A DNA stretch of 34,881 nt from Acidobacteriota bacterium (GTDB taxonomy: Bacteria > Acidobacteriota > Thermoanaerobaculia > UBA5066 > Gp7-AA6): positions 1-34,881 of the forward strand of contig QHVV01000006.1 in NCBI GenBank assembly GCA_003222385.1. The letters are read 5' to 3'. A model generated the notes under the pieces. That model searched no databases. It was not told the origin of the DNA and saw only the letters and a program-made list of their open reading frames with translations. The first letter of the stretch is position 1. Each line of letters starts with the position of its first letter. This document shows positions 11,817-15,033 of this stretch, one piece after another. The position numbers and the translations under genes are program-made.

Positions 11817-12824
11817 TCAGTCCCCGAGCGCTGCCAGCCGGACGATGAGATCCACCACGCGGTTCGAGTATCCCCACTCGTTGTCATACCACGAGAGGAC
11901 CTTCACGTAGCCGTCCCCTGCGGCCCGGGTCGAGAGCGCGTCGAAGATCGAAGAGTTGGGATTGCCGATGATGTCGCTCGACACCAGAGGAACCTCGCTG
12001 TACTCGAGGATGCCGCGCAGACGGCCCTCCGCGGCGCGCCGCATCACGTCGTTCACTTCTTCCGCCGTCGGCTTCCTTTTCAACCGGCAGGACAGATCGA
12101 CGACCGACCCATCCGGGACAGGCACGCGCATCGCCATCCCGTCCAGCTTTCCCTGGAGCTGCGGCAGGACCTTGCCGACGGCACGGGCCGCCCCGGTCGT
12201 CGTCGGGATGATGTTCTCGGCGGCCGCCCGGCTGCGCCGGAGGTCCTCGTGCGGCACGTCGGCGAGCCGCTGGTCGTTCGTGTAGGCGTGGACGGTCGTC
12301 ATGAAACCTTCCTCGATGCCGAACTCCTCGTCGAGAATCATCGCGATCGGCGCGAGGCAGTTCGTGGTGCAGGACGCGTTCGACACGATCCGGTGCTCCG
12401 GGGAGAGCGTGCGGTCGTTGACCCCGACCACGATCATCGCGTCGACGTCGCCCTTCGGCGGGACGGTCAGGATGACCCGCCTCGCGCCGGCCGACAGGTG
12501 CTTTGCGAGCTTTTCCCGCGTCAGCAGGACGCCGGTGGATTCGACCACGATCTCGACCCCGAGCTTCTTCCACGGGATCCGCGCGGGGTCCTTCTCCGCG
12601 GTCATGACGACCTTTCGGCCGTCGACGAACATCGCGTCCGCGTCCGCCGAGACCTGCCGGTCGAAGACCCGCATCACGGTGTCGTACTTGAGGAGGTAAG
12701 CGAGGTGCGCGTTGTCGAAGAGATCGTTCACCGCGACGACTTCCATGTCGTCGCGGTCCGAGAGGATCCGGAACACGGAGCGTCCGATCCGGCCGAATCC
12801 GTTGATGCCGACCCGGATCATCAT
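11817..12824 (-). CDS. gap: Type I glyceraldehyde-3-phosphate dehydrogenase (canonical)
   Basis: The 335-aa enzyme converts glyceraldehyde 3-phosphate, NAD and phosphate to 1,3-bisphosphoglycerate. The Rossmann motif INGFGRIGR is at residues 7-15. The catalytic loop SNASCTTNC places the nucleophile at C152, with base H179 in TTVHAYTND. The TTTGAAR phosphate loop, the substrate Arg in AMRVPVPDGS and the terminal SWYDNEWGYSNR are all present. An Asp in VNDLFD suggests NAD preference. Two adjacent ATG codons (12824, 12821) are possible; the first overlaps the upstream paralogue's stop (ATGA), so translation is coupled. No phosphoglycerate kinase is adjacent. Confidence 0.93.
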   Translation of the reverse strand: MMIRVGINGFGRIGRSVFRILSDRDDMEVVAVNDLFDNAHLAYLLKYDTVMRVFDRQVSADADAMFVDGRKVVMTAEKDPARIPWKKLGVEIVVESTGVLLTREKLAKHLSAGARRVILTVPPKGDVDAMIVVGVNDRTLSPEHRIVSNASCTTNCLAPIAMILDEEFGIEEGFMTTVHAYTNDQRLADVPHEDLRRSRAAAENIIPTTTGAARAVGKVLPQLQGKLDGMAMRVPVPDGSVVDLSCRLKRKPTAEEVNDVMRRAAEGRLRGILEYSEVPLVSSDIIGNPNSSIFDALSTRAAGDGYVKVLSWYDNEWGYSNRVVDLIVRLAALGD

Positions 12825-13849
12825 CGCGCCGCGGCGACCTTTCGATCGAGCTCGGCGAAGCGATCCAGCAGCTCCACCGCCCGGTGCGCGTACCCGAAAC
12901 CGGAGTCGTACCAGGAGACGGTCTTGGAAACCCTTTCGCCGAGCACCATCGTGGCCAGCGAGTCGAAGGTGCTCGACCAGGACGACCGGGCGACGTCGCT
13001 CGAAACGATCGGGTCGGCCTCGAACTTGAGGACGTTCCTCCACCGCTCGGTCGCCGCCGCGGTCCGCACGACCTCGTTGACCGCGACCGGCGTCACCGGA
13101 CGGGAGTGCCAGCAGACAAGGTCGACCGCCGAGCCGTTTCGCACCGGGACCGCGACGGCGGAACCCGTCACGCGGCCGGCCAGGGACGGAACGACCTCCA
13201 TCACCATCGCGGGGGAGCGGGACTCCTGCGGAATGATGTTCTCCGCCGCCGCGCGGCCGCGGCGCATCTCTTCGGCCGGCACGTCGGCGAGCCGGTGCTG
13301 GCTCGTGTACGAGTGGACGGTGGTGTAGAGCGCCCGTTCGATGCCGAACGCGTCGTGGAGGATCTTCGCGATCGGCGCGAGGCAGTGGACGGTGGAAGAG
13401 GCGTTCGAGACGATCCGCTGGCGGCTGTCGAGCTCGCCGTCGTTGACTCCCCGGACGACCGTGATGTCCGGAGGCTCGAGCGGCGGAGCGCATGCGATGA
13501 CCCGCTGCGCCCCCGCGCGCAGGTGACTTTCGAGCTCGGAACGCGTGCGCCCGCGCGAGGTCGCCTCCAGCACGGTGTGCACGCCGAGCGCGCCCCAGTC
13601 GACCGGGCCCTGGTCCTTCCCCGTGATCATGCGGATCTGCCTGCCGGCGACGTACAGGTTCCCCTCCCGGATCGAGACTTCGTCGGGGAAGCGCCCGAGA
13701 AGGGTGTCGAATTTGAGCAGGTACTCGAGCGGTTCCGGCGCGTTCCAGTCGCTGATGGCCGCGATCGAGACGTCGTCCCGATCGTAGAGGAGCCGGAAGA
13801 GATTCCGCCCGATCCTCCCGAACCCGAAGAGCCCGACAACCGTCGTCAC
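12821..13849 (-). CDS. GAPDH paralogue lacking the catalytic cysteine (probable pseudoenzyme)
   Basis: The 342-aa product aligns along its whole length with the downstream GAPDH. It keeps the nucleotide-binding loop LFGFGRIGRN and H179 in TTVHSYTSQHRLADV. The catalytic loop reads SNASSTVHC: Ser152 replaces the nucleophilic Cys (codon TCC against TGC). The phosphate loop TTTGAAR is replaced by QESRSPA, the substrate-binding Arg of AMRVP is Ala (AVAVP), and SWYDNEWGY has become SWYDSGFGY. Ordinary phosphorylating activity is therefore unlikely. It may bind NAD, form mixed tetramers with the neighbour or have a regulatory role. The GTG start overlaps the hydrolase stop (GTGA). The frame is intact, so it is not a decayed gene. 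Confidence 0.9.
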   Translation of the reverse strand: MTTVVGLFGFGRIGRNLFRLLYDRDDVSIAAISDWNAPEPLEYLLKFDTLLGRFPDEVSIREGNLYVAGRQIRMITGKDQGPVDWGALGVHTVLEATSRGRTRSELESHLRAGAQRVIACAPPLEPPDITVVRGVNDGELDSRQRIVSNASSTVHCLAPIAKILHDAFGIERALYTTVHSYTSQHRLADVPAEEMRRGRAAAENIIPQESRSPAMVMEVVPSLAGRVTGSAVAVPVRNGSAVDLVCWHSRPVTPVAVNEVVRTAAATERWRNVLKFEADPIVSSDVARSSWSSTFDSLATMVLGERVSKTVSWYDSGFGYAHRAVELLDRFAELDRKVAAAR

Positions 13850-14637
13850 AGGTGAGAATTTATCGCGTCGAGGAAGCGCCGCCAGACGGCCAGATACTTC
13901 TCTCCGCCGACGACGTACGCGTCGTTGTGGCCCGCGCCCGGGACGACGAGAAGCTCCTTCGGAGACCTCGCGAGATCGAAGAGCCGCCGCGCGTGAGCGG
14001 GAGGGGCGACGTCGTCCTGCGCCGCCGCCACGAACAGTTTGGGCTGCGCGACCCGGGCGATCTTCTTCTCGGTGTCGTAACGGGATCGGACCAGGAAGCC
14101 GGGCACGAAGGGATAGTGAACGCGGGCGAGCGCCGGCACCGAGAGAAACGGGGTCTCGAGCGCGACTCCCGCGGGCCCTTTTGCGGGGGACCTCGCGGTC
14201 CCCCGATCCCCCTGCCTTGCGAGTGCGACCTCGACGGCGACCGCGCAGCCGAGCGATTCGCCGAGCAGGATGATCCGTTCCGGCGCGAAGCCGCGGTCGC
14301 GTGCCGCGTCGTAAATCGCGAAACCGTCGCGATACAGACCCGATTCGGAGGGCCGTCCTTCCGACAGGCCGTAGCCGCGATAGTCGACGAGGAAGAGATC
14401 GACGTCGAGGCGATCCACGAAGAGCTTGGCGCGGTCCAGGCGATGGCTGACGTTTCCGGCGTTTCCTTGGAAGAGCAGGACGACCCGGCGGCCGCCGCCC
14501 TTGATCCACCAACCCTTCAGCCGAACGCCGTCCGAGGCGACCGGCGAGAGGTCCTCCGAGCGCAGGCCGTAGTCGGCGGGCAGGGCGTCGAGCCGGCGGA
14601 GCGGGAAGTAGAGGAAGCGGTCTTCGAGCCGGCTCAT
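13846..14637 (-). CDS. Alpha/beta hydrolase (S33/ABHD17-like)
   Basis: The 263-aa protein shows the YqkD/ABHD-type hydrolase pattern: LLFQGNAGNVSHR (oxyanion region), FLVDYRGYGLSEG, nucleophile elbow GESLGCA with S128, an acid at D208 or D209 in AAQDDVAPP, and H237 in PGAGHNDAY. An N-terminal hydrophobic anchor is weak or absent. Residues about 142-157 (QGDRGTARSPAKGPA region) are an insertion encoded partly by a perfect DNA palindrome at 14185-14204. It is the first gene of the four-gene operon and divergent from the thioredoxin-like selenoprotein gene, 30 nt away. The substrate, perhaps an acyl ester or thioester, is unknown. Confidence 0.85.
   Translation of the reverse strand: MSRLEDRFLYFPLRRLDALPADYGLRSEDLSPVASDGVRLKGWWIKGGGRRVVLLFQGNAGNVSHRLDRAKLFVDRLDVDLFLVDYRGYGLSEGRPSESGLYRDGFAIYDAARDRGFAPERIILLGESLGCAVAVEVALARQGDRGTARSPAKGPAGVALETPFLSVPALARVHYPFVPGFLVRSRYDTEKKIARVAQPKLFVAAAQDDVAPPAHARRLFDLARSPKELLVVPGAGHNDAYVVGGEKYLAVWRRFLDAINSHL
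14185..14204. repeat. Perfect palindrome inside the hydrolase coding region
   Basis: GGGGGACC (14185-14192), loop TCGC, GGTCCCCC (14197-14204). It lies where the hydrolase has an extra loop between the helix after the nucleophile and the next strand. It keeps the reading frame. It looks like a mobile palindromic insertion within a gene. Confidence 0.6.
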
Positions 14638-14667
14638 GCGCTAGGCTGTGGCGGGAGGAAAACGCGC

Positions 14668-15033
14668 ATGAAGATCGTTCGAGCGATCGCGTTCGCCGCC
14701 GCCGCGCTCTCGGTGGTTGTCGCCGCGGAAGGTTCCAGCTCCGCCAAGTCGAAGTCGATGCAGGTCACTTACTACTACCTTCCCGGCTGAATGATCTGCG
14801 CGAAATTGAAGCCCGCCGTGAGCGGTCTCGAAAAAGAGTTTCCCGGAGTCCGTGCGAAGAACGTGGATGCGACGACCGCCGGAGGGAAGGCGGCCATCCG
14901 GAACCTCGGATTCGAGTCCCACGGGATCGTCATCCGGTCCGCCGGCGGCAAAGTGCTGTGGAAACAGCCGGACCATACCGTGAAGATGGAAGACGTCCGA
15001 GCCGAGCTCGCGCGCCGGACCGGGCGGCGCTGA
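14668..15033 (+). CDS. Exported thioredoxin-like selenoprotein (Sec41, UxxC motif)
   Basis: The ATG at 14668 is 9 nt after GGGAGG. The frame is open to 15033 except for one TGA at 14788-14790. With TGA read as selenocysteine the product is 121 aa: signal peptide (residues 1-20, AFAAAALSVVVAAEG), first strand MQVTYYYLPG, then U41-M-I-C44 at the start of helix AKLKPAVSGLEKEFPG. Strand VRAKNVDATT, helix GGKAAIRNLGF, hairpin HGIVIRSAGGKVLWKQPD and a final helix follow. This is the thioredoxin order with Sec at the first redox position. The usual cis-Pro before the hairpin is absent (ESHGIVI). A hairpin at 14806-14832 fits a bacterial SECIS. It is divergent from the hydrolase-GAPDH operon. The alternative, a nonsense mutation, is less likely. 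Confidence 0.8.
14806..14832 (+). promoter_or_regulatory. SECIS-like stem-loop downstream of the in-frame TGA
   Basis: CCGC (14813-14816) pairs with GCGG (14822-14825) around the loop CGTGA, with G as second loop base. Below one C-U mismatch, G14811-C14827 and A14810-U14828 extend the stem; after a two-base mismatch U14807-A14831 and U14806-A14832 also pair. The loop starts 26 nt after the TGA, within the window known for bacterial SECIS elements (about 16-37 nt), which also have G in the first loop positions. Hand folded. Confidence 0.6.

Follow-up and report, generated by a model that had tools for sequence, protein, structure and literature searches.

The comparative analyses described here establish that the in-frame TGA codon at positions 14788-14790 of the window (the whole stretch of acidobacterial DNA that was analysed, 34,881 nucleotides in length) is a selenocysteine (Sec) codon. 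We consider it highly probable that the gene containing it encodes an exported thioredoxin-fold selenoprotein, into which Sec is inserted at residue 41 in a SelB-dependent manner and in which U41 would attack and C44 resolve. Within the limits of our searches, the protein appears to represent a selenoprotein family that had not been described before, most likely a Sec-only family of extracytoplasmic selenol/thiol oxidoreductases. The gene is laid out as follows.

14654-14659, + strand: Shine-Dalgarno sequence GGAGGA, 8 nt before the ATG (read directly)
14668-15033, + strand: coding sequence of the selenoprotein, 121 codons and a stop, with codon 41 for Sec (same reading in 15 relatives)
14668, + strand: ATG start codon of the selenoprotein gene (read directly)
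14668-14730, + strand: predicted N-terminal signal peptide, end approximate (VVVAA/EGS), from the sequence
14788-14790, + strand: UGA codon for selenocysteine (U41), TGA in 16/16 members
14797-14799, + strand: Cys44 codon TGC, resolving Cys of the UxxC motif, invariant in 16 members
14811-14827, + strand: predicted SECIS hairpin of bacterial type, with CGTGA as its loop (14817-14821; covariation and frozen synonymous codons)
14920-14925, + strand: invariant His85-Gly86, where thioredoxin has the cis-Pro (Gly86) and its preceding residue (His85) (alignment with 6bkv and family alignment)
15031-15033, + strand: stop codon TGA of the selenoprotein gene (read directly)

Re-reading of the DNA confirmed the Shine-Dalgarno sequence and reproduced exactly the coordinates that the original prediction had given for the start, the splitting of the frame by a single TGA and the final stop. 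Translating the first TGA as Sec yields a conceptual product of 121 residues that starts MKIVRAIAFAAAALSVVVAAEGSSSAKSKSMQVTYYYLPG-U-MICAKLKPAVSGLEKEFPG, and U41 and C44 of its U41-x-x-C44 motif do fall on the CxxC site, as had been proposed. Since both neighbouring genes (an alpha/beta-hydrolase-like ORF upstream and a large ORF downstream) lie on the opposite strand, the selenoprotein gene stands alone.

Relatives were sought in the genome's own family and class, in a second class, in 396 genomes of the phylum (by profile) and in a genome collection. The family, window protein included, comprises 16 distinct members from 13 genera and 10 families of one phylum, Acidobacteriota (as taken from those records that bear names), and the 15 relatives share 30-56% identity with the window protein. 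All 16 members have the TGA in the equivalent position, followed three residues downstream by Cys, which in independent genomes is far beyond chance; TGA at position 41 in 16 separate genomes also excludes the sequencing error that had been raised as an explanation at the outset. Invariant throughout are Y35, P39, G40, U41, C44, V51, L54, G81, F82, H85, G86, G94, H103 and R111. In the profile search of the 396 genomes, 13 of the 14 true members were recovered at E <=1.4e-39 and ordinary thioredoxin domains at 4e-5 and worse. Scanning the genome collection with alignment-derived patterns yielded four Acidobacteria loci; patterns taken from the single protein yielded no relative there (one demanded Cys, and the rest were overly specific), nor was any relative found in the viral contigs and plasmids searched. 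Among the rejected candidates, L021 (a TonB receptor, in a shadow frame) and L050 were chance matches, and L046-L049 proved to be ordinary Cys thioredoxin domains within larger proteins, with the usual cis-Pro, and not orthologues. Resolution of the gene tree is poor, and the class to which the window belongs does not emerge from it as a clade. The most diverged member of the family (L045:1378-1794; 30% identity, very long branch) retains U, C, GF and HG, together with a re-paired SECIS stem (GGCCAT/ATGGCC). Across the 16 genomes the gene neighbourhood contained no operon partner and no conserved neighbour pointing to a substrate, the shared neighbours being abundant kinase/TPR-type families, shadow ORFs or genes limited to near relatives.

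In general, a bacterial SECIS element is a stem-loop that immediately follows the UGA and has a guanosine in its small apical loop (PMC1088965); the predicted hairpin at 14811-14827 agrees with this description. The hairpin begins 20 nt after the TGA (alignment columns 24-40), with the loop beginning at the 27th nt, and the apical loop reads CGTGA in the members, or CGTGG in one. In the alignment of 16 sequences 92.7% of cells are paired, four of the six pairs show two-sided changes that preserve pairing (for example C-G to A-U, U-A or G-C), and one of 500 shuffles, but none of the slid registers, attained the covariation score. The codons for Pro-Ala-Val-Ser across the hairpin are almost fixed (CCC 13/13, GCC 15/15, GTG 16/16, AGC 13/14); synonymous codons outside it, including those of the downstream invariant residues, are mostly near expectation. 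The window hairpin taken alone is weak (z +0.91, one outer pair mismatched), and the case for the hairpin is a comparative one. Rfam gave no match within the window.

The window's own genome, in an assembly that is 95% complete, contains all four of the genes for which the original prediction had asked a search: selA (462 bits), selB (324 bits, a 633-aa ORF), the tRNA-Sec gene selC (anticodon TCA, on a contig that also holds tRNA-Ala) and selD. The last has an in-frame TGA of its own at the catalytic position, SSAG-U-ACKIG (L023/L024, C76:2899-3829), and is split over two reading frames downstream of it; a Sec-SelD plus an assembly frameshift is the probable interpretation. Sec use seems common in Acidobacteriota, with selA above cut-off in 250 of the 396 genomes of the even phylum sample, as against all 14 member genomes within it (hypergeometric P = 0.0014, a value that ignores relatedness). 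The assembly also holds a second, strongly diverged UCA tRNA (L011:1497-1597, on the 3.7-kb contig C72), which scores 72.5 bits as tRNA-Sec. As the other ORFs of that contig look actinobacterial in our own judgement, this second tRNA-Sec is probably a contamination of the assembly.

Conservation through the TGA demands read-through as such, and with a second UCA tRNA in the assembly it might be supposed that an amino acid other than Sec is inserted, either by that tRNA or by a near-cognate one. We regard this as very improbable: selA, selB and selD are present, the position and covariation of the SECIS hairpin fit SelB, the second tRNA itself scores as tRNA-Sec and probably does not belong to the organism, and of the window's 22 ORFs that were counted as genes 17 end in TGA, which is thus not reassigned. 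In the window the TGA directly precedes an ATG, an arrangement that would suit a pair of distinct ORFs, of which the second begins at this ATG, if not a pseudogene or an assembly error. The codon after the TGA, however, is ATG in seven members and CCC, CCG, TCG, GCG or CAG in the other nine, and this variation excludes both re-initiation at the next ATG and assembly error; moreover, protein conservation continues on both sides of the TGA in the family alignment, which draws on 16 independent assemblies. Comparison of the 16 members thus refutes this group of explanations, whose probability we put at practically nil.

The thioredoxin-like fold proposed for the Sec-containing product was borne out by an AlphaFold2 model built from five aligned members, in which residues 31-118 form a b-a-b-a-b-b-a arrangement, pLDDT is about 90-96 over residues 31-120 and residues 1-25 are of low confidence. 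The best solved structural matches are all thioredoxins (Foldseek 1.9e-5 and weaker; Z 11-13, up to 13.3, rmsd 1.6 over 86 residues), and within the predicted fold the two redox residues, U41 and C44, are spaced xx. The original prediction was also right that the classical cis-Pro is missing, the position being occupied by Gly86, preceded by invariant His85, in the alignment with 6bkv and in that of the family. In thioredoxin folds the cis-proline is likely to aid substrate binding and may keep metals from binding to CxxC, and peroxiredoxins carry Arg at this position (PMC2757866). Because the cis-proline is lost, the mechanism of thioredoxin is not directly transferable to the window protein. 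Export, which had likewise been proposed, agrees with an N-terminus that looks like a signal peptide; all 16 members appear to be exported, seven of them with lipobox signal peptides by pattern, and from these N-termini we infer that the U41 site is extracytoplasmic.

Considering these features, we suggest that SelB carrying Sec-tRNA-Sec would bind the hairpin after the UGA and insert selenocysteine at residue 41, a step to which the conserved sequence and structure point. The selenoprotein would then be exported across the inner membrane; in certain species it may be anchored as a lipoprotein. In the cell envelope U41 may attack a disulfide or another oxidized substrate, and C44 would resolve the resulting selenenyl-sulfide, as in other UxxC redoxins. 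The presence of His-Gly in place of the cis-proline may imply a substrate or ligand unlike that of ordinary thioredoxin.

The window protein stays below the cut-off of every Pfam and NCBIfam model (the latter including many known UxxC families); against PF00085 it scores 13.7 bits, the Pfam cut-off being 23.5. Weak matches occur in 14 of the 16 members to PF00085 (best 1.2e-4) and in 14 to NCBIfam TrxA (best 8.3e-7), so that 'poorly described', as the family had tentatively been called, is apt, and the literature that we searched contained no description of this Acidobacteriota selenoprotein family. UxxC thioredoxin-like selenoproteins are in themselves a known kind, several being listed in an inventory of May 2026 (PMC13188914). 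From the Sec-containing thioredoxin of that inventory (PF00085, UxxC; representative WP_010956703.1; PMC13188914) the window family differs in its invariant His-Gly instead of cis-Pro, in lacking a WCGPC-like motif, in being apparently exported or a lipoprotein and in having no Cys orthologue that we could find. Sec-containing glutaredoxin and Grx-like proteins (PF00462, TIGR02187, UXX-star) are likewise small redoxins, U occupying the first position of the active site, whereas the window family appears exported, has thioredoxins as its nearest solved folds and gives weak Pfam matches (best 1.2e-3). The VPGUxxT family thioredoxin-like selenoprotein (OS_HP5, NF041383) shares Pro-Gly directly before Sec, but the window family has UxxC rather than UxxT, and NF041383 matches none of the 16 members at E 1. 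SaoT (NF040730) and the HUIPC-motif selenoproteins (NF047660) are also thioredoxin-like UxxC selenoproteins; SaoT matches one member at E 0.039 and NF047660 none of the 16, and the window family, unlike these, has no conserved gene neighbourhood. DsbG-like, DsbA-like and TlpA-like Sec redoxins are also thiol oxidoreductases of the extracytoplasmic space, Sec being part of a UxxC or UGC motif. They differ from the window family in retaining the cis-Pro and having insertions, and Thioredoxin_4 gives no more than weak matches in four of our members (best 0.012).

Given the shared fold and the weak PF00085 and TrxA matches in 14 of 16 members each, the window protein might be counted as a diverged sequence within the known family of Sec-containing thioredoxins (PF00085, UxxC), and not as one of a separate family. 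We hold this to be possible but doubtful, in view of the sub-threshold score of the window protein, the signal peptide, the missing WCGPC-like motif and cis-Pro, and the wide gap by which the family's own profile separates its members from ordinary thioredoxin domains. The invariant His-Gly invites a different suggestion, namely that the task of the Sec site is not disulfide exchange but the binding of a metal or metalloid or the reduction of a peroxide, U41, C44 and His85 forming a ligand set that would be exposed without the cis-proline. The roles ascribed to that position, in keeping metal from CxxC and, as Arg, in peroxiredoxins (PMC2757866), lend this some force, and invariant H103 and R111 are further candidate residues; yet the overall fold and the nearest solved structures are those of plain thioredoxins, and no metal-related genes were seen among the neighbours read. 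It is in our view unlikely, and selenol/thiol oxidoreduction is the activity that we favour.

Cys had been expected at the TGA position in some homologues, and in this respect the family departs from the original prediction. No Cys form at position 41 was found by profile search in the 396 Acidobacteriota genomes, nor was one found in plasmids, and the peptide [TI]YY[YF]LPGC revealed no relative with Cys in a collection of 84,980 species, where short patterns of this kind would miss diverged forms; phyla other than Acidobacteriota were covered by pattern scan alone. Lacking any relative with Cys at this position, the family appears, as far as searched, to be Sec-only. One may go further and propose that it arose within Acidobacteriota as an obligately Sec-dependent family, in which, with His-Gly in place of the cis-Pro, selenol, thiol and His would form an extracytoplasmic metal, metalloid or peroxide site; a Cys form could not replace such a site, and no Cys orthologue would then exist. 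We offer this as a speculative and rather improbable extension. Much of bacterial selenoprotein discovery depends on Cys/TGA pairs. The authors of deep-Sep state that their own method may miss selenoproteins without Cys homologues (PMC12013277), and the present family falls in this blind spot; ordinary gene callers, for their part, would give the gene as fragments or miss it entirely. Spread as it is over many Acidobacteriota lineages, the family is well suited to the question of what would keep a redoxin from ever reverting to Cys.

Elsewhere in the window, two tandem GAPDH-like genes lie on the - strand (ORFs 11817-13493 and 12821-14512). In the upstream one the catalytic motif, expected as SNASCTTNC, reads SNASSTVHC, with Ser replacing the active-site Cys; this gene is possibly a non-catalytic paralogue.
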